Shown: piece after piece, positions 7,889 to 37,994 of the stretch | Numbering within the stretch: position 1 is the first letter of the stretch | Layout: each line of letters begins with the position of its first letter | Origin: Paludibacteraceae bacterium | Lineage (GTDB): Bacteria; Bacteroidota; Bacteroidia; Bacteroidales; Paludibacteraceae | NCBI GenBank assembly: GCA_017541805.1 | Contig: JAFXYK010000049.1 | Span: forward strand, 1-40,261 | Direction of reading: 5' to 3' | Length of the DNA: 40,261 nucleotides | Translations under genes and position numbers: made by a program | Notes under the pieces: generated by a model | Told to the model about the DNA's origin: nothing | Databases searched by the model: none | The model's input: the letters and a program-made list of their open reading frames with translations, nothing else

Positions 7889-8615
7889 ACGGCTCTCCGT
7901 ACGCGTTTTTTCTTGCTTTCAGCACCTCCACATGTTTCGTCATCACCGCGTGATCTCCGCGCTTGGCAGGACCTGTCTGTGCGTCCATTGGACGCATGGA
8001 ATGTACTTTCGCAGCCGTCTGATCGATCAACGGTAACAGCGCCTCAAACGGTAACTGCGTCTCTTTCAGCACTTCGGCGGCGATGCGGTACATGAGGTTC
8101 GTGTAGTTATTGGCGAACACGCCCGCTATATGCAACCGCTCGCGGTCATGCTGATTCGCCTCGTAGATACGGTTCGTCAACGTCTGCGCCAACGAATAGA
8201 TTGCAGCGATATCGTCGATGTTATGACCCTCGATGAAACAAGGGATCGAACTCCAGTCGTCTATCAACACTTCGCGACTGAAACTCTGGAAGAAATAGAG
8301 TATGCCTGCGTGCGGTTTGTCTTCTTTGAACACATCGATCGGCATCGAACCCGACATATGCAGGTGCAGCGCCTGCGGCGCATGAACCAGCGAGACCACT
8401 TGTTCCAACACATGATCCGCCACCGTGTAGATATATACGTCTGCCTGAGGCACCTCCGCTCTCGACTCTTGACTCCCGACGCTCGACGCTCCACTCTCAT
8501 CTATCCCCGCTGTCAACGGCCGTGCGTGTACCAACTCCGCACGAACACCTTTCAACTCAAACGCGTGATGAATATTTGTGCCGACACTCCCGGCACCGAT
8601 AATTGCTATTCTCAT
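7818..8615 (-). CDS. Rossmann-like and DUF2520 domain-containing protein
   Basis: A 265-residue putative NAD(P)-binding oxidoreductase, distantly like ProC. The N-terminus has the dinucleotide motif MRIAIIGAGSVGTNI; the C-terminal half (FFQSFSRE, HIAGVFANNYTNLMY, KVHSMRPMDAQTGPAKRGD) is the DUF2520 part. The substrate is unknown. About residues 39-53 (ESGASSVGSQESRAE) are encoded by six tandem heptamers (8457-8498), apparently inserted in the loop between two strands of the Rossmann fold. The gene overlaps the mutY 3' end by 71 bp and lies 28 bp downstream of the unknown 139-residue gene, with which it is probably co-transcribed. Confidence 0.88.
   Translation of the reverse strand: MRIAIIGAGSVGTNIHHAFELKGVRAELVHARPLTAGIDESGASSVGSQESRAEVPQADVYIYTVADHVLEQVVSLVHAPQALHLHMSGSMPIDVFKEDKPHAGILYFFQSFSREVLIDDWSSIPCFIEGHNIDDIAAIYSLAQTLTNRIYEANQHDRERLHIAGVFANNYTNLMYRIAAEVLKETQLPFEALLPLIDQTAAKVHSMRPMDAQTGPAKRGDHAVMTKHVEVLKARKNAYGEPFSSEELCEVYQALGALIEKAHNH
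8457..8498 (-). repeat. Coding heptamer array x6 inside the DUF2520 gene
   Basis: Six exact-phase 7-bp units, purine-rich on the coding (minus) strand, with consensus GAGMGTC. Together they make 42 bp, or 14 codons, so the frame is kept. They resemble the arrays at 37077 and 40229. Confidence 0.82.
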
Positions 8616-9063: not shown

Positions 9064-9088
9064 TCCTTCCTCCTATTTTTTATATATT

Positions 9089-9385
9089 TTACCTCTCTCT
9101 TATCCCTCTTATATCCCTCTTTTATCACTCTTTTATCCCTCTTTTATCACTCTTTTATCACTCTTTTATCCCTCTTTTATCCCTCTTTTATCACTCTTTT
9201 ATCACTCTTTTATCCCTCTTTTATCCCCCTACTACCTGCCTCTCACCCCTCTTTCTCTCTCTCCTATTTATTTCCCACCTATCTCTCCCCTATCTCTCTT
9301 ATAGTGTTCCTATGCTTTTCTTATGCCGTTCTTATGCTAAACTTATGTGATTCATATGTTATTCGTATGTTATTCATAAGTTATT
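9089..9385. repeat. 11-bp tandem array, about 27 units without indels
   Basis: Reading in steps of 11 from 9089 to 9385 keeps phase throughout. Units 9100-9231 are nearly uniform (TTATCCCTCTT or TTATCACTCTT). Units 9232-9297 drift (TCACCCCTCTT, CACCTATCTCT, CCCCTATCTCT). Units 9298-9385 become CTTATGNNNTT and CRTATGTTATT. On the transcribed minus strand the core unit is AAGAGGGATAA. This array accounts for most of the 500-bp gene-free stretch 9064-9563, whose remainder holds the promoter at 9469-9499 and the terminator at 9511-9540. Confidence 0.92.
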
Positions 9386-17090: not shown

Positions 17091-17125
17091 AGTGGAAAGT
17101 TTCAAGTGGAAAGTTAAAAGTTTAG
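17091..17125. repeat. Heptamer array x5 between lptD and the FKBP gene
   Basis: Five exact-phase 7-bp units, AGTGGAA, AGTTTCA and variants, occupy the gap from the lptD stop codon to 5 bp before the next ATG. The purine-rich strand is the coding strand. Confidence 0.82.
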
Positions 17126-22600: not shown

Positions 22601-23005
22601 AGTTACCTGATGGAGGAACTGCCGAACGGTTCGCACAGCCTGTCTTTCCGGGCTTGGGATCTGCTTAATAACAGTACGACGCAACGCTTGAACTTCGTCG
22701 TAGAAGCAGGTTTGGATCCGTCTATCTACTCCGTCACTACCTATCCTAACCCCGTACAAACGGAAGGAATAGTGAACCTGGTAGTGAACTACGATCAGCC
22801 GGACGAACTGCTGAGCACCGAAATCTATCTGTATAGCACGAACGGGCAAATGGTATATTGCCATAAGCAAGACAACCCGGATGCAGTAGCGATCAACATC
22901 GCCCAATTGGGACTCCGCGCAGGAGTGTATATTTATAATATCCGAATCAAATCCGCGTCCAGCAAATACAGCACGACGTCAGGAAAGATTATAGTAACAC
23001 AATAA
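19658..23005 (+). CDS. porU: Type IX secretion system sortase PorU
   Basis: Surface cysteine protease (family C25, gingipain-like) that removes the C-terminal signal of T9SS cargo and attaches it to anionic LPS. 1115 residues with a signal peptide (ends WAG). The catalytic dyad is His632 (DYSGHGGYN) and Cys665 (FFTCNFGEWD). The last ~85 residues are a T9SS C-terminal domain (TTYPNPVQTEGIVNL ... GVYIYNIRIKS), as PorU itself keeps. The stop codon abuts a heptamer array. porV follows, the same pair as in P. gingivalis. Confidence 0.95.
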   Translation: MKRIATIVLWMMMCLPMWAGIHSYVNQSVLAEGKWVKIRVSESGICRMSFDDLRKAGIDPQLVHVYGYGGAQKEQDFSKSNIDDLPQVPVFKGEDFILFYVQGPISWTYNGSRFVHTRNTYSDYGYYFLTESSEEYVAPAPVVINGTPAEVTTYPFYQVQDKDSLNLIDRTGVSGGGRYFYGEQFAANQKRTFTFSTPNAISGETCTLYIDVAANAPTDSYFAATLNESTTQRTWISKPADQYDMACAGTISLNGATQETKQQVRLQLQNSNASALGWLNYIEITTPSALKMVGDYMPIRTVTNRYNSTPIRFHLSNAGANTLVWDITYPDAITPMEVSAAEGEITWTALQTDGIHEFIAFNPAGSKWVSAEVVGTVANQNLHALKDIDYVIICPEGYEALSTELAKAHEEKEGITWAVVTDQQVYNEFSSGTPDATAYRWLMKMLYDRANSGIGQKPRWLLLMGHGTFDNRKLLDKSGTRLLLTYQAKNSVNEVKAWASDDYFAWLDDNEGTSDRAAKMDIGVGRLPFENADEARTTVDKLLRYMRNEQTGKWKNQLVYLADDGEKGRHTRTAEESAERVRVANPDFVVHKIFLDAYPQEVNASGESYPLAKNRVLNLLKSGVLFFDYSGHGGYNAITSESVLNQKDIEQMNNKNLAVWLFFTCNFGEWDSGRRCAAESAVLNPNGGAIGVFSATRTVYADDNTYLNRSVCDTLFGHSDVFHYDMTLGEAMAIGKNTCYSQNENRLAYVLLGDPAMRVNYPTDYHVQTTTQIDTLNALSVQHVEGRIIDEDQQLVSDFNGRVDITIYDKMQSIPTRDNDNAGGDALVVAYNDYPSTIFSGATEVKEGLFNYTFMVPKDIRYNFGNGRIVYYAVTTDSLETAEAVGHFEDFTIGGTGSIVTVDTVGPKMHIYLNTPAFQDGDRTYATPRFFAELEDENGINTAGAGIGHDLMLVIDDDSKQIYTLNEYFTAADNSYQRGQVSYLMEELPNGSHSLSFRAWDLLNNSTTQRLNFVVEAGLDPSIYSVTTYPNPVQTEGIVNLVVNYDQPDELLSTEIYLYSTNGQMVYCHKQDNPDAVAINIAQLGLRAGVYIYNIRIKSASSKYSTTSGKIIVTQ

Positions 23006-23039
23006 GTTGAAAGTAAAAAGTTGAAAGTATAAAGAGCCT
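23005..23039. repeat. Heptamer array x5 between porU and porV
   Basis: Units AGTTGAA, AGTAAAA, AGTATAA and variants in exact 7-bp phase, starting on the last base of the porU stop codon. A looser continuation of five units (TTGATAA/ATTGAAT type) can be read at 23053-23087. Confidence 0.8.
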
Positions 23040-24313: not shown

Positions 24314-24784
24314 ATGCGTATCGGCTTTGGATATGATGTACATCAATTCTCCCCTAACCGCCCGTTGTGGTTAGGGGGAATTGAGGTGCCGTACGACAAA
24401 GGGTTATTAGGTCATTCGGACGCCGACGTGGTCATTCACGCGCTATGCGACGCGCTGTTAGGCGCCGCTGCGATGCGTGATATAGGCTATCATTTTCCGG
24501 ATACCAAAGGAAACGAATACGAAGGGATTGATTCGAAAATCCTTCTGCGCCGCGTGATGGAGATGATTCGTGAGGCCGGCTATGAGTTAGGTAACTGCGA
24601 CATCACTATCTGCGCGCAAGCTCCCAAACTGAATCCGCATATAGAGGCTATGCAAGCATGTCTGGCGGAAGTGATGGGAGTAGAAATGAATCAAGTAAGC
24701 CTCAAAGCGACGACGACGGAACATCTTGGTTTTGTCGGTCGCGAAGAAGGTATCGCCGCGTATGCGGTTGCACTGATCAATTGA
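24314..24784 (+). CDS. ispF: 2-C-methyl-D-erythritol 2,4-cyclodiphosphate synthase
   Basis: MEP isoprenoid pathway enzyme, 156 residues, the normal size, forming a trimer with a divalent-metal site. Metal ligands are Asp8 and His10 (GYDVHQF) and the His of GHSDADVVIHA; the substrate region FPDTKG and the C-terminal KATTTEHLGFVGREEGIAAYAV are typical. The stop codon lies inside the first unit of a heptamer array. Confidence 0.97.
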   Translation: MRIGFGYDVHQFSPNRPLWLGGIEVPYDKGLLGHSDADVVIHALCDALLGAAAMRDIGYHFPDTKGNEYEGIDSKILLRRVMEMIREAGYELGNCDITICAQAPKLNPHIEAMQACLAEVMGVEMNQVSLKATTTEHLGFVGREEGIAAYAVALIN

Positions 24785-24808
24785 AAGGTAAAAATTGAAA
24801 GGTGAGAG
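24781..24808. repeat. Heptamer array x4 joining ispF to the next gene
   Basis: Units TTGAAAG, GTAAAAA, TTGAAAG, GTGAGAG in exact phase. The first unit contains the ispF stop TGA and the last unit supplies the GTG start codon of the next gene. Confidence 0.85.
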
Positions 24809-25675: not shown

Positions 25676-25703
25676 GGTGAAAAGTGAAAGGTTAGAGGTT
25701 AGT
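25676..25703. repeat. Heptamer array x4 between sufE and aroK, antisense orientation
   Basis: Units GGTGAAA, AGTGAAA, GGTTAGA, GGTTAGT in phase. Both flanking genes are on the minus strand but the purine-rich strand is plus, so this array cannot be a purine-rich ribosome leader. It supplies the last sense codons and the stop of sufE (25692-25703). Confidence 0.82.
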
Positions 25704-29563: not shown

Positions 29564-30457
29564 ATGACTTCAGAAGAGTTATTACAAAAGGTTCGGAAGA
29601 TAGAGATCAAGACTCGCGGGTTGAGTCGCAATATCTTCGCAGGCGAATACCACAGCCAGTTCAAAGGTCGTGGTATGGCGTTCAGTGAGGTGCGCGAATA
29701 CCAGCCCGGAGACGACGTGCGGTCCATCGACTGGAACGTGACGGCCCGCATGAACCGCCCCTACGTCAAGATCTACGAGGAAGAGCGAGAACTGACGGTG
29801 ATGTTGCTCGTCGATGTCAGCGGAAGTAGAAATTTTGGCACCCTGAGCCAAATGAAACGCGACATGATGGCCGAAGTAGCTGCCACACTCGCTTTCTCCA
29901 CGATAGAAAACAACGATAAAGTGGGCGTGATCTTCTTTTCCGACCAGGTTGAGAAATTTATTCCGCCGAAGAAAGGTAAATCGCACGTGCTGCATATCAT
30001 CCGCGAGTTGCTGAGTTTCGAACCGCAACACACCGGGACCAATATCAACGCGGCGCTGCAGTACCTGACGAACGCGCAGAAGCGTCGCTGCACGGCGTTC
30101 CTGATCAGCGACATGATGGATGGTAAGTTCTATCTCGAGGCCTCGAGATCTCGTGATCTCGAAGTAGCGCCGGTAGTTATCGCGAGTCGAAAGCACGATC
30201 TGAATGCGATCCAGATCTACGACCGCCGTGATGCGGAGTTGCCGAATATCGGTCTGATGAAAGTGCGCGATGCGGAGACCGGTCAGCGGCTGTGGATAGA
30301 TACGGCCATCGCTTCGACCCGTGCGGCGTACGCACAGGCTTGGGAGCGGCAACAGGGATTATTAGAGATGGTGTACCAGAAAACGGGCATCAACCATGTC
30401 TCTATCCGCACCGGCGAAGACTATGTGAAGAGCCTGATGAGACTGTTTCAGAGGTGA
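29564..30457 (+). CDS. DUF58 domain protein (VWA-like) of the Bat operon
   Basis: A 297-residue cytosolic protein normally encoded right after MoxR. The DUF58 motif GRGMAFSEVREYQPGDDVRSIDWNVTAR is at 35-62 and a VWA fold follows with a MIDAS motif DVSGS at Asp84, the TGTNI threonine and DMMDG. Residues ~191-201 (LEASRSRDLEV) are encoded by octamers at 30134-30165. The stop codon lies in the first unit of a six-heptamer array that runs to the next ATG. Confidence 0.93.
   Translation: MTSEELLQKVRKIEIKTRGLSRNIFAGEYHSQFKGRGMAFSEVREYQPGDDVRSIDWNVTARMNRPYVKIYEEERELTVMLLVDVSGSRNFGTLSQMKRDMMAEVAATLAFSTIENNDKVGVIFFSDQVEKFIPPKKGKSHVLHIIRELLSFEPQHTGTNINAALQYLTNAQKRRCTAFLISDMMDGKFYLEASRSRDLEVAPVVIASRKHDLNAIQIYDRRDAELPNIGLMKVRDAETGQRLWIDTAIASTRAAYAQAWERQQGLLEMVYQKTGINHVSIRTGEDYVKSLMRLFQR
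30134..30165. repeat. Octamer array CTCGANNN x4 inside the DUF58 gene
   Basis: Units CTCGAGGC, CTCGAGAT, CTCGTGAT, CTCGAAGT in exact phase within the coding sequence. The first units form the 18-bp perfect palindrome ATCTCGAGGCCTCGAGAT (30132-30149). Confidence 0.8.
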
Positions 30458-30495
30458 AAAGTGAAAGGTGAAAAGTGAAAGGCGAAAGGTGAAAG
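30454..30495. repeat. Heptamer array GTGAAAR x6 between DUF58 and the next gene
   Basis: Six units of GTGAAAA, GTGAAAG or GCGAAAG in perfect phase. The first unit contains the DUF58 stop TGA and the last ends at the base before the next ATG (30496), so the whole junction is repeat. Confidence 0.93.
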
Positions 30496-32388: not shown

Positions 32389-33429
32389 ATGTTTCGATTT
32401 GCCAATATAGAATTTTTATGGCTGTTGGTGAGCATCCCTGTGCTCGTCGCTGCCTTCTATGCGTACACGCGCCATAAACGCCGCCAGCTGGCCGAGTTCG
32501 GAGACCCGGAGTTGGTAGCGGCACTGATGCCGAACGCGAGTCGTGTACGTCCGATCATCAAGTTCTCGATTTTATTAGTGGCTCTGACGCTTCTTATCTT
32601 CGCCGCGGCACGTCCGCAGATGGGCATCAAAGAGACGGAGGAGACCCAACACGGAATAGAAGCGATGATCGCACTCGATATATCCAACTCGATGCTGGCG
32701 GAGGACGTTGCGCCGAACCGTATTGACCGCGCAAAACAGATGGTGAGCAAACTGGTGGATAACATGCTGGAGGACCGTTTAGGCCTCGTTATCTTCGCCG
32801 GCGACGCTTTCACACAAATGCCGATCACCAGTGATTTCGGGGCAGCGAAGATGTTCCTCAACTCTATCTCGCCGGACTTGATTCGCACGCAAGGAACAGC
32901 TATCGGCGCTGCGCTTGACCTGTGTGTAGCCGGTTTTGACACCGATTTCTCTGACGCTGACCGTGCCATCATCATCATCACCGACGGTGAAAACCACGAG
33001 GACGATGCGATAGCGGCTGCGCAGCGTGCAGAAGCCGCAGGTATTCGCGTCATCGTAGTAGGTATCGGTAAACCTGAAGGTGCGTTCATTCCCATTCCCG
33101 GCAGTTCGGACTACCTCAAAGACCGCTCCGGCGAGCGCGTAGTAAGTAAGTTGAACGAAGAGATGTGCGAGCAGATCGCGCAAGCAGGACACGGTATATA
33201 CGTCCATTGCGACAATACCAACACCGCGTTGAAGGTCATTCAGAAAGAACTCGAAGACATGAAACAGGCAGAGTTCAAAGGGATGGCATACAAGGATTAT
33301 AACGAGCAGTTTGCGTCCTTCGCTATCGTTGCCCTGATCCTGCTGATCATCGATTTCTTCATCTTCAACCGCAAGAATAAGATGCTCACCAAACTGGATA
33401 TGTTTGGAGAAATGAAAGGTGAAAAGTGA
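32389..33429 (+). CDS. batB: Aerotolerance VWA protein BatB
   Basis: A 346-residue paralogue of BatA with the same layout: two N-terminal membrane segments, a VWA domain with an intact MIDAS (DISNS at Asp97, GTAIGA, ITDGENHEDD), and a C-terminal membrane segment (ASFAIVALILLIIDFFIF). BatA and BatB probably interact. The last residues (EMKGEK) and the stop are encoded by a GTGAAAR heptamer array at 33412-33446. Confidence 0.94.
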   Translation: MFRFANIEFLWLLVSIPVLVAAFYAYTRHKRRQLAEFGDPELVAALMPNASRVRPIIKFSILLVALTLLIFAAARPQMGIKETEETQHGIEAMIALDISNSMLAEDVAPNRIDRAKQMVSKLVDNMLEDRLGLVIFAGDAFTQMPITSDFGAAKMFLNSISPDLIRTQGTAIGAALDLCVAGFDTDFSDADRAIIIITDGENHEDDAIAAAQRAEAAGIRVIVVGIGKPEGAFIPIPGSSDYLKDRSGERVVSKLNEEMCEQIAQAGHGIYVHCDNTNTALKVIQKELEDMKQAEFKGMAYKDYNEQFASFAIVALILLIIDFFIFNRKNKMLTKLDMFGEMKGEK

Positions 33430-33446
33430 AAAGTGAAAGGAGAACA
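33412..33446. repeat. Heptamer array x5 across the batB stop and the batC leader
   Basis: ATGAAAG, GTGAAAA (twice), GTGAAAG and GAGAACA in phase. It codes for the end of BatB, supplies its stop, and ends 3 bp before the batC ATG. Confidence 0.88.
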
Positions 33447-35954: not shown

Positions 35955-36703
35955 GAAATATACTATTAGCAGCCCTGCTGCTCCTTTCACCTATCACCTA
36001 TCACCTCTCGCCTTTATACGCGCAGAGTGATTTCGACTTGGCAAACATCGCCTATACGGAGGGACGCTATGCCGAAGCGGCGGCAGGCTACGAAGCGCTG
36101 CTACAGCAGCAACAGAACGCGACGCTGTACTACAATGCCGGCAATGCGTATTTCAAGCAAGGTGAGTTAGCGAAAGCCATCCTCAACTACGAGCGCGCGT
36201 TGCGTCTCGAGCCGAATCATAAGGATGCGAAATTCAACCTGGAGTTCGCGCAATCGAAGATCACGGATAACATCGAGGAGCACGATTTCTTCCTCTCTAT
36301 CTGGGCGCAGGCTGTGCGTAACAGCATGCACGAGCATACATGGATCATCCTCTCCATCGTGCTGTTCCTGCTCACCCTCACCGGCATCCTGGTCTTCCTG
36401 CTGGGCCGCGAGCCCTGGCTGCGCAAGACGGCTTTCCATACGGCATGGGTAGCCCTGCTCTTCTGCATCATTGCCGGCGTGAGTGCTAACTCACTGCATA
36501 AAAGAGATACCCTGCGCAATGAAGCTATCATCACACAGGGCATCGTCAATGCGAAAGCCTCGCCTGACCGTTCAGGCACCGACCTGTTCACGCTTCACGA
36601 AGGCACCAAAGTGACCATCCGTGAGACACTCGGTGAGTGGGTTAACGTGAAGGTTGGGAAGAACGAGGGCTGGATTCCCGCGAAGGACCTTGAGAGGATC
36701 TAA
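35951..36703 (+). CDS. batE: TPR and SH3 protein BatE
   Basis: A 250-residue last gene of the Bat operon: signal peptide, TPR units at about 30-105 (LANIAYTEGRYAEAAAGYEALL; YYNAGNAYFKQGELAKAILNYERALRLEP), two membrane segments (about 118-140 and 156-174) and a C-terminal bacterial SH3 domain (VNAKASPDRSGTDLFTLHEGTKVTI). The second half of the signal peptide (LSPITYHLSPLY) is encoded by four heptamers at 35985-36012. The last 62 bp overlap the 3' end of the convergent lipoprotein gene. Confidence 0.93.
   Translation: MRNILLAALLLLSPITYHLSPLYAQSDFDLANIAYTEGRYAEAAAGYEALLQQQQNATLYYNAGNAYFKQGELAKAILNYERALRLEPNHKDAKFNLEFAQSKITDNIEEHDFFLSIWAQAVRNSMHEHTWIILSIVLFLLTLTGILVFLLGREPWLRKTAFHTAWVALLFCIIAGVSANSLHKRDTLRNEAIITQGIVNAKASPDRSGTDLFTLHEGTKVTIRETLGEWVNVKVGKNEGWIPAKDLERI
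35985..36012 (-). repeat. Coding heptamer array x4 in the BatE signal peptide
   Basis: Plus-strand units TTTCACC, TATCACC, TATCACC, TCTCGCC; purine-rich GGTGAAA-type units on the minus strand, antisense to batE. Phase is exact. Confidence 0.82.
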
Positions 36704-37994
36704 CGGAGCCGCTCGTCTTCGTCGAGTTGTTCGTCGAACGAGTAGAGGTGTTCGTGCTCTCACGTTTTACGGAAGTGGTACGACCTGTATTGTCGGTTGT
36801 TTTAATCGTCGTGCGGGTGGTACCACTGCTTTTTACGCGTGTCTCTACCGTCGTTGACGGCTGACGAACAGACGTACTTGTCGTCTTGGTCGTATTGGTC
36901 TTCGTATCTGTCGTTCGTACGGATGTACCCGTCGTCTTGGTCGTAGTAGCGCTGGTCTTTGATTCCTGACTCGTTCTGCTCGTCGTGCTAGCCTTGGTAT
37001 CCGTCGTACGAACAGACGTACCCGTTGTCGTCGGCTTGGTCTCCGTCGTGCGTACGGACGTACCAGTAGTCTTCGTCTCTTGACTCTCTACTTTCGACTC
37101 TTGACTCTTCGCCGCCTCTTTGTTCACCTCTGTACGTAACTGACCGGCGTTACGAACCGATACACCACCGGTGCTGGACGCACTGATCGTACGCGTCACG
37201 CGGTTCTCAAACGACTGCTCCGGGTGCGAAGTCTGATAGTCGTTGCGGTGATGCGGCTGCGTCATCGTCGTGTAACTGCTGTAGTGCGGCGTGGTCGGAT
37301 AGTCGCAGTGATGGCAGTAATGATGGTTCGACATATAGGTACTTACATACGCCTGATAGTGATTCAGATAAATCGGTTTCGGCTTCGTGTAGTAAGAGGG
37401 GTAATAGTCCCAGTAATAGGGCGACGACCAAACGGTGTAACTCGAACGACCGTACGTGTTCCACATCGGCGGACGTTTCACGAATACCGGACGAACGATG
37501 TAGTTATATCCGTACAGATACGGATCTCCGATCACCTCGACATACAGTCTGTCCGCCATACGCTCTGCTACCAACGTAGCTACGTCCTGGAATACACCCG
37601 GAGCGAGACAGGCCTGAATCAACAACGCATGATAATAACCGTTGCGGGTCTCAATCACGCGCAGGTAATCTACCCAGCCGTCGCGGTTCAAGTCCAAGTT
37701 ATTGATCATGTACCGAGAGGAGTTCAGCAACTGCTCAAACTCACGTACGTTATCCGCCTCCGCGAAAGCTGCAGCTACCGCGTTGAGGTCCAGATAGAAA
37801 CACATGTCCGCGTTGTAGTTCGTCACGGTCACCGTGGTCACCGTCGTCGTCTTCGGCGAAGGAGTCGTCACGGTCGTCGTGTACACGGTGCGCACCGGTG
37901 CTACCGGCTCATCCGTCGGAGCTACCGTCCAGATACTCGTCCAGCAACTGGTCATACCCAGCACTGTAAGGGCTAATAATGCAAGTTTTTTCAT
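36642..37994 (-). CDS. Lipoprotein with an EF-hand-like loop and Thr/Ser-rich repetitive tail
   Basis: A 450-residue protein with lipobox MTSC (Cys17). After a Thr-rich linker comes a folded domain at about 60-175 (MCFYLDLNAVAAAFAEADNV, an EF-hand-like DLNRDGWVDY, LIQACLAPGVFQDVATLVAERMADRLYVEVIGDP), a Tyr/His-rich segment (to about 255) and a long Thr/Ser/Arg/Lys tail with repeats of TGTSVRTT(E/D)TK. Heptamers encode SQESKVESQET (37077-37111). It lies 11 bp after infB, probably co-transcribed. The final 20 codons overlap batE in antisense. Likely surface- or periplasm-exposed; family unrecognised. Confidence 0.82.
   Translation of the reverse strand: MKKLALLALTVLGMTSCWTSIWTVAPTDEPVAPVRTVYTTTVTTPSPKTTTVTTVTVTNYNADMCFYLDLNAVAAAFAEADNVREFEQLLNSSRYMINNLDLNRDGWVDYLRVIETRNGYYHALLIQACLAPGVFQDVATLVAERMADRLYVEVIGDPYLYGYNYIVRPVFVKRPPMWNTYGRSSYTVWSSPYYWDYYPSYYTKPKPIYLNHYQAYVSTYMSNHHYCHHCDYPTTPHYSSYTTMTQPHHRNDYQTSHPEQSFENRVTRTISASSTGGVSVRNAGQLRTEVNKEAAKSQESKVESQETKTTGTSVRTTETKPTTTGTSVRTTDTKASTTSRTSQESKTSATTTKTTGTSVRTTDTKTNTTKTTSTSVRQPSTTVETRVKSSGTTRTTIKTTDNTGRTTSVKRESTNTSTRSTNNSTKTSGSVRSSQGPSRESSPRSSQPSR
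37077..37111 (-). repeat. Coding heptamer array x5 in the lipoprotein tail
   Basis: Plus-strand units CTCTTGA, CTCTCTA, CTTTCGA, CTCTTGA, CTCTTCG in phase; purine-rich on the coding strand. Near-identical in unit order to the array in infB (40229). Confidence 0.85.

Follow-up and report, generated by a model that had tools for sequence, protein, structure and literature searches.

What produces a gene junction that is built, from the stop codon of one gene to the start codon of the next, of tandem heptamers? The question is raised by the window, a stretch of 40,261 nucleotides that constitutes contig C89 of a 1.705-Mb draft genome (G000, 89% complete), close to rumen Paludibacteraceae MAGs. 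Its genes, called with our own simple script (the calls are rough, most so in the 20-kb samples used below), include an operon of the order MoxR-DUF58-(weak DUF4381)-VWA/BatA-VWA/BatA-TPR-BatD. We take this MoxR-DUF58-VWA arrangement to resemble the bat operon, and its second VWA/BatA-type gene is presumably BatB, a name given by gene order. The spacer behind DUF58 reads GTGAAAA, GTGAAAG, GTGAAAA, GTGAAAG, GCGAAAG, GTGAAAG; its first base lies 1 base before the DUF58 stop (TGA, 30455-30457) and its last base abuts ATG 30496. None of 2000 dinucleotide shuffles equals its lag-7 score of 24. The initial annotation had described six GTGAAAR units at this place; the array is real, and five of its units conform to the formula, the remaining one being GCGAAAG.

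Five further sites in the window had been assigned the same design, with arrays that fill the whole junction between the stop of one gene and the start of the next and keep an exact 7-bp phase throughout (Table 1). The boundaries hold for the main junction but not for the other five: the array at 33412 begins 15 bases ahead of the stop of the upstream VWA/BatA-type gene, that at 25676 overlaps the end of the SufE gene, that at 23005 stops short of the next called gene start (PorV, about 23110; ATG 23040 opens a five-codon frame only), and that at 17091 ends 4 bases short of ATG 17130. As to phase, the arrays at 30454, 33412 and 25676 are strong at lag 7, whereas "always exact" is generous for those at 23005, 17091 and 24781, since these score better as 14-mers. 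A 14-bp higher-order unit was considered as a general rule and rejected: pooled over 61 arrays, identity is 0.860 at lag 7, 0.857 at lag 14 and 0.836 at lag 21, and because it is no higher at lag 14 than at lag 7, the 14-mers are a feature of some sites only. The purine-rich strand is indeed the coding strand at five of the six sites. The units do differ in their letters from site to site, but they are less unrelated than had been claimed, most of them fitting, by inspection, a loose RGTNNAA.

Table 1. Features of the window discussed in the text (positions in the window; p values from 2000 shuffles at each site).
Positions	Strand	Feature	Support
29564..30457	+	DUF58 gene of the bat-type operon, upstream partner of the main junction	sequence
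30454..30495	+	Six-unit heptamer array between DUF58 and the gene with weak DUF4381 similarity; includes the DUF58 stop	lag-7 score 24
33412..33446	+	Heptamer array spanning the 3' end of the second VWA/BatA-type gene and supplying its final codons and stop (33427-33429)	lag-7 score 17.5, 0/2000 shuffles
25676..25703	-	Heptamer array where two minus-strand genes meet (SufE, shikimate kinase); coding strand is the pyrimidine strand	lag-7 score 13, 0/2000 shuffles
23005..23039	+	Weaker array 3' of the C25-peptidase gene, best as 14-mers	lag-7 p 0.004, lag-14 p 0
17091..17125	+	Weaker array between the LptD and FKBP genes, best as 14-mers	lag-7 p 0.0135, lag-14 p 0.0005
24781..24808	+	Weak array 3' of the YgbB gene; significant at lag 14 only	lag-7 p 0.22, lag-14 p 0
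35983..36013	.	CCTATCA-type array outside the list of the initial annotation, in a spacer called convergent; purines on the minus strand	
8459..8498	.	CTCTCGA-type array outside the list of the initial annotation; purines on the minus strand, gene here uncertain	
37077..37109	-	Heptamer array within a called gene (36642-37994); coding-strand unit of AAGAGTC type	
30132..30162	+	Period-8 array within DUF58, at the variable loop that holds heptamers or palindromes in relatives	

The frequency of such arrays was assessed in the window together with 20 stretches of its genome picked regardless of repeats (311 kb), by counting segments with a lag-k score of at least 9 against dinucleotide shuffles. 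Between genes, lag 7 yields 34 segments, compared with 0.8 in shuffles, followed by lag 8 (16 vs 0.9) and lag 11 (12 vs 0.5), while lags 3, 5, 6, 9, 10 and 12 give 0 to 3 each (lag 5 none, lag 6 one). The two outcomes that had been named as fatal to the proposal were not encountered: lag-7 periodicity at junctions is far commoner than in shuffled sequence, and identical arrays did not turn up in distant relatives. The design is common at gene junctions, as had been claimed, but it does not belong to them alone, for lag 7 is in excess within genes too (30 vs 1.0); lag 8 (6 vs 3) and lag 11 (2 vs 3) were also counted there. A long period-11 array, TTTTATCCCTC, is present in the window at 9087-9227 in 12.8 copies and is followed by further 11-bp arrays (also at 9278-9385); in near relatives, period-11 arrays occupy spacers, often divergent ones, with no excess inside genes.

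The trait is shared by the relatives of this genome. Among 28 relatives (loci L001-L027 and L030), lag 7 is found 55 times between genes (1.2 in shuffles) and 54 times within them (4), with lag 9 (9 vs 1.0) and lag 10 (5 vs 1.2) both raised. The other 52 loci show 86 intergenic segments at lag 7 (2.4 in shuffles) and 32 in genes (5), as well as 25 vs 2.6 at lag 9 and 10 vs 2.2 at lag 10, so that the trait reaches past the nearest group and includes periods beyond 7, 8 and 11. Intergenic lag-7 counts are similarly high in samples of the congeners G014 (20 vs 0.2), G015 (15 vs 0.0) and G035 (18 vs 0.4), and G008 is seemingly array-poor (1 vs 0.0 between genes here, and 1 in 27 kb in the congener survey that follows; such samples are small). 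Of 31 usable congener samples, a set that includes G008 and leaves aside G004:C2 and G022:C2, which are N throughout, 21 contain at least one array and 10 have none in the stretch, the range being 0 to 10 per 20 kb. Lag 7 stands at about twice the background both in other families of the order (6 vs 3.0, 18 stretches) and in the wider class and phylum (9 vs 4.8, 19 stretches); L160, L163 and L176, each shorter than 1500 bases, were excluded from the pools of this comparison. A 50-kb piece of E. coli contains no lag-7 array. The pattern GTGAAARGTGAAAR occurs 48 times in the window genome, compared with 7 occurrences of its reverse, and at least once in 31 of 80 genomes sampled across the phylum, mostly once or twice; family f46 reaches 20 matches, but its reversed controls reach 12. 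Counts of GTGAAAR itself range among congeners from 0 (in 11 of 36) to 133.

Orthologous places carry the same period with different units. At the junction between DUF58 and the next gene, 7 of the 28 relatives have overlapping genes (by 4 bp) and 21 have spacers, of which 14 hold a heptamer array (score of at least 7.5; p at most 0.003 by 300 shuffles), four an octamer array and three neither. The heptamers of these 14 relatives and of the window fall into six unit clusters, including TAGACAA, AATTGAT, AATTAAG, AATTGAG and GTGAAAG, which bears out the earlier observation that sequence varies while the period stays. A variable loop within DUF58 itself contains in-frame heptamers in six of 27 relatives (L002, L014, L016, L017, L021 and L023; lag-7 score of at least 8.5), with units such as GTCGAAA in L021, GGACAAT in L023, ACAATGT/ACAAAGT in L016 and AGAGCCA in L017, and in nine other relatives it contains in-frame palindromes of two kinds. 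BatD, assigned by length and position and found at 23 of the 28 near loci (the other 5 did not yield it), bears arrays of several different units at about 0.74 of the gene in 12 of those 23. As a 7-bp period within a gene cycles through the frame every 21 bp, it is the DNA period that is shared and not the peptide.

Several small elements were observed in and around these places. A dispersed palindrome of the CCCTCCCCTCAAGGGAGGG type, which we take to be much like the Rickettsia palindromic elements, lies in spacers and in frame in genes (L027 5808-5870, a clean 37-bp difference from L010; L012 12908 and 15217) and in the DUF58 loop of L012, L015, L022, L024, L026 and L027. A dispersed element of about 90 bp, ACAAAGGGCT...AGGACGCTTTGT, is flanked on both sides by opposite-facing ACAATGT-type heptamers at L232 4257-4402 and at about 2660-2810 of L027, and genome G143 has similar stretches in several places. 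A further small element, AAAGACCGCTTCGCTCAAAG with its variants, is also dispersed and runs into AGTCGAA-type heptamers in the DUF58 loop of L002, L004 and L021 and at about 220-270 of L232. The spacer ahead of the DUF58 gene in L027 (1633-1811) is about 120 bp longer than that of L010 and consists of TTTACGTAG-type period-9 repeats. Many congeners also contain open frames, some 330-440 aa long, that resemble Y1 transposases weakly and over part of their length, at G000:C105:11535-11651 and like places.

The units present in one genome are more alike than those of different genomes. For 154 arrays from four genomes, compared in any rotation and on either strand after exclusion of array pairs less than 3 kb apart on one locus, identical units were found in 3.4% of within-genome pairs and in 1.1% of pairs between genomes. 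Units within one mismatch account for 11.8% and 7.4%, respectively, compared with 3.5% for random units. The within-genome share of near-identical units (0.118) was reached by none of 500 permutations of the locus labels (mean 0.088, maximum 0.114). Since near-identity between genomes also exceeds that of random units, shared sequence bias explains part of the recurrence; a common unit grammar of about AARKYRA on the purine strand carries 4.54 bits per unit, compared with 3.56 (maximum 3.67) for letter-shuffled units.

Each genome seems to draw its units from a small repertoire of its own, as counts of individual units in 20 genomes suggest. Dimers of AATTGAG number 44, 63, 95 and 18 in the genomes of L021, L026, L027 and L019, then 4, 4 and 1, and are absent from 13; dimers of ACAATGG number 15, 14 and 10 in those of L002, L016 and L023, 4 in the window genome, then 2 and 1, and are absent from 14. 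These lexicon units, which were picked after inspection of the loci, stand at the DUF58 junction of L021 and L026 (AATTGAG) and of L002 (ACAATGG), and among the genomes with the ACAATGG lexicon, L023 has the unit in its DUF58 loop and L016 a one-base variant there. The correspondence is uneven: L027, the richest in AATTGAG, bears AATTAAC at its DUF58 junction, and GTGAAAR counts do not track that junction, being higher in L026 (110) and L027 (108) than in the window genome (48).

Changes in individual arrays can be followed in L010 and L027, draft genomes of two species that are 95% identical over 8.4 kb and 94-95% (C4) or 89% (C39, C16) identical in other orthologous stretches; the comparison is unpolarised. 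Dimers of AATTGAG number 4 in the genome of L010 and 95 in that of L027. In a spacer at L232:3654 the units are AAATCTC in one species and AATTCTC in the other, with a length difference of 21 bp; in a called gene 1.7 kb away (L232:5396) they are GAGATTT and GAGAATT, again with 21 bp; and in a spacer on another contig (L238:829) they are GATTTGA and GAATTGA, with 42 bp. The same GATTTGA-type versus GAATTGA-type change, accompanied by a difference in length (+21, +21 and +42 bp), therefore recurs at three sites on two contigs, and this parallel change is the strongest sign of concerted change. Because the two L232 sites are so close that one recombination event may account for both, it rests on two independent places, and our confidence in a dispersal reading is lowered accordingly. 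At a fourth comparable site, L232:10231, both species have ATTTGA units and differ by 22 bp.

Array lengths in relatives had been proposed as a check, and they give a mixed answer. Differences of 7, 21, 21, 21 and 42 bp are found at five sites, which include, besides the three above, L238:1433 (in a gene, 21 bp) and L027:563 (7 bp, GTCAAAA vs GTCGAAA), but elsewhere the lengths differ by other amounts or by larger element insertions: 10 bp at L232:13043, 15 bp at L027:3502, 26 bp at L238:14046, 32 bp at L234:14043, and zero at L238:10104, L027:6612 and L234:14143. At further sites the two species differ in the content itself. Within a gene at L238:10552, an AGTCGAA array in one species corresponds to an ACAATGT array in the other (3 bp difference) between stretches that are 95% identical; GTGAAAG corresponds to AGTCGAA at L238:12618 (12 bp), and a palindrome to an ACAATGT array in the DUF58 loop at L027:2338 (6 bp).

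The position of the arrays relative to genes was examined in two samples. In the 28 near loci and genome samples of G000, G014, G015 and G035, lag-7 arrays have a density per kb of 1.65 in co-directional spacers (98 arrays), 1.65 in convergent spacers (22), 0.49 in divergent spacers (12) and 0.13 in genes (122). Among 126 co-directional arrays from 80 loci and the window genome sample, 99 of which comprise 3-5 units, 73 start before the upstream stop or within 5 nt of it, where 58.7 are expected and the maximum in 2000 placements is 71. Start codons exert no such attraction in this sample, as 64 of the 126 end within 10 nt of a start, compared with 69 expected. The coding strand is stopped in all three frames in 63 of the 126 arrays, compared with 16% of random stretches of spacer, and the opposite strand in 41, compared with 10%; a stop-rich heptamer can close every frame in the space of about 21 bp, which may be incidental or slightly advantageous.

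We consider the best explanation, with a probability of roughly one half, to be that the array at 30454 represents a single copy of a dispersed heptamer micro-satellite, specific to this lineage, that spreads among tolerant sites, turns over in concert and is probably neutral. In this Paludibacteraceae group, sites that tolerate change, chiefly the first bases behind a stop codon and the variable loops of proteins, would continually give rise to sequence of period 7 (more rarely 8 or 11). Units of 7 bp would be gained or lost in register by slipped-strand synthesis, as is suggested by arrays whose lengths in close species are 7, 21 or 42 bp apart. Arrays at separate loci would then adopt a common unit by spread and replacement, giving each genome a small, fast-changing lexicon; for this pattern, the simplest candidate mechanism is ectopic template switching or short-patch conversion between arrays. 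Within genes, arrays that break frames or add stops would be removed by purifying selection, which would leave stop-poor units and in-frame changes there. What remains would probably be near-neutral filler that often gives the upstream gene its stop and last residues and sets the length of the spacer.

A different role was suggested by the initial annotation, in which the purine-rich arrays could help translation; more broadly, purine-rich heptamers before starts may aid ribosome binding or bind a regulator, as has been proposed for the TAACTGA repeats. The orientation of the purine strand at the window sites agrees with such a signal, as do the A-richness of co-directional arrays (A 0.43, G 0.158), the SD-like words at 17% of starts with an array and 8% of those without, and a mean anti-Shine-Dalgarno pairing with the 16S tail of -2.54 at 53 starts with an array, compared with -1.73 at 237 without. 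The difference in pairing between these starts is, however, not significant in a rank test (p 0.25), and their A content is 0.44 vs 0.43. The coding-strand purine bias in co-directional spacers (63:21) is similar to that in genes (74:29). Convergent spacers are as dense in arrays as co-directional ones and divergent spacers are the poorest, arrays are drawn to stops and not to starts, and orthologous junctions do not keep the unit. Tests of junction type, of array position, of strand bias and of pairing all gave no support to a translation signal, which was rejected; stop-side location, density and pairing together point to tolerance at gene ends and argue against an initiation signal as a general role, which we regard as improbable.

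Purely local slippage from sequence already at the site, with the likeness of units within a genome due to base composition and mutation bias, is the alternative that we take most seriously, and it is possible if somewhat unlikely. It agrees with the five sites at which lengths differ by multiples of 7, with the 14-bp higher-order copies at four window sites, with the variation of units from site to site within one genome and with the shared unit grammar. Against it stand within-genome sharing above the label permutations, the fact that two of three lexicon units tested are common in few genomes and absent from most of 20, the GATTTGA/GAATTGA-type change repeated on two contigs, and the replacement of a whole unit family at L238:10552. 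The initial proposal of local expansion of whatever sits at the junction is in this respect half sustained: unit number does change locally, but the units are drawn from dispersed, genome-specific sets with a loose grammar. Going further than the dispersed micro-satellite, one may imagine an active process working in trans, which would draw on the lexicon of its genome to place 7-nt repeats wherever change is tolerated and would convert existing arrays in concert. It would be a bacterial counterpart of dispersed satellites in which the period is kept while sequence is replaced and gene ends and loops are continually remade. We hold such a process to be doubtful, and its enzyme need not be a reverse transcriptase. 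A reverse-transcriptase element (retron, DGR or group II intron) was rejected as driver, since matches to PF00078 number zero in the array-rich G000 (at 89% completeness), G014 and G035 and one each in the array-rich G015 and G018; a mutator lacking MutS was likewise rejected, MutS being a full-length open frame in G000 (C12, 884.7 bits) and over the cut-off in 57 of 61 genomes. Neither a reverse transcriptase nor MutS loss is needed for the arrays. That the arrays derive, as arms or as remnants, from dispersed palindromes of MITE or REP type, which a transposase mobilises together with the heptamers, is suggested by the core of about 90 bp between opposite ACAATGT-type heptamers at L232:4257-4402 and at the DUF58 junction of L027, and by the DUF58 loop, which holds palindromes in some species and arrays in others. 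This origin is nevertheless quite unlikely, for no palindromic core is present in the sequence flanking the main window array, and the Y1 transposase (PF01797) has one marginal partial match in the window genome and none in the array-rich G014 and G015; the case for a RAYT as mobiliser is thus marginal. Chance, assembly error or a gene-calling artefact, which draft MAGs and simple gene calls might invite, is scarcely credible when numerous separate assemblies contain arrays, when those in genes keep the frame and when counts lie tens of fold above shuffles, and arrays of such length are shorter than typical reads.

The dispersed heptamer micro-satellite that we prefer has counterparts among known repeats. 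According to the "library" view of eukaryotic satellites and their concerted evolution, related species share repeat families that are amplified to different extents. A shared set of families with differing amplification is likewise seen here, although the arrays are very short and dispersed in a compact bacterial genome. In bacteria, long simple sequence repeats dominated by heptanucleotides have been described, for which polymerase-related slippage was proposed as the source of the 7-nt step (Mrazek et al. 2007, as cited in PMC4679880), an idea also found in Rehm 2015 (PMC4692102). As in those repeats, heptamers predominate here: the window genome has a 7-nt tandem unit above chance, and unit number differs between relatives in steps of 7 at five sites. 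Unlike them, the present arrays are imperfect and short, with many unit families per genome and changes of family at orthologous sites.

The TAACTGA direct repeats, reported in Beggiatoaceae, Cyanobacteria and five Bacteroidetes including Paludibacter propionicigenes, are also intergenic heptamers, their indels between two close Cyanothece strains are mostly in 7-nt steps, and stop codons limit their occurrence in genes in one orientation (PMC4679880). They consist of one fixed unit located mostly just upstream of starts in the main genome described there (PMC4679880), whereas here many units lie on the stop side and in-frame arrays are frequent; the TAACTGA unit is absent from the six window sites, and clustering just upstream of starts was not found in the co-directional sample. 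The GGGNATC-type heptamers of Xanthomonas and Nostoc favour junctions of aligned genes, are rare in divergent ones and, on the sense strand, are often no more than 50 bp behind a stop (PMC4692102). Their placement at junctions, their stop-side location and their variation in length between relatives recall the present arrays, but they form G-quadruplexes and 83% are kept as G-rich repeats between two species (PMC4692102), while here families are swapped, and a GGG tract in each unit is lacking at the six window sites. The tandem repeats of Borgs, which arise independently and evolve fast in spacers and genes, are similarly A-rich and include a protein hotspot conserved with different repeats (PMC9879509). 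They are generally perfect, unique to a locus and, in genes, of a unit divisible by three (PMC9879509), whereas those described here are imperfect (lag-7 identity 0.86 over 61 longer arrays), shared between loci and of 7 bp also in genes. The present arrays differ from the published repeats in that orthologous sites switch families, that each genome has another lexicon and that 7-bp arrays are kept in frame in genes; no paper on family-switching arrays of this kind was present among the matches listed for heptamer or 7-bp tandem repeats, a search in which the subscription literature is thinly covered.

An excess of heptamers in bacteria has been noted before, and this group of rumen-related genomes combines pairs of close species with a high array density, a variety of unit families and congeners whose sampled stretches contain few arrays or none, so that the origin, spread and cost of 7-bp repeats become testable by comparison. 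Spacers, stop codons, C-termini and protein loops can be replaced between close species, and such replacement affects intergenic alignments, the prediction of promoters or ribosome sites, and the comparison of MAGs in Bacteroidota.
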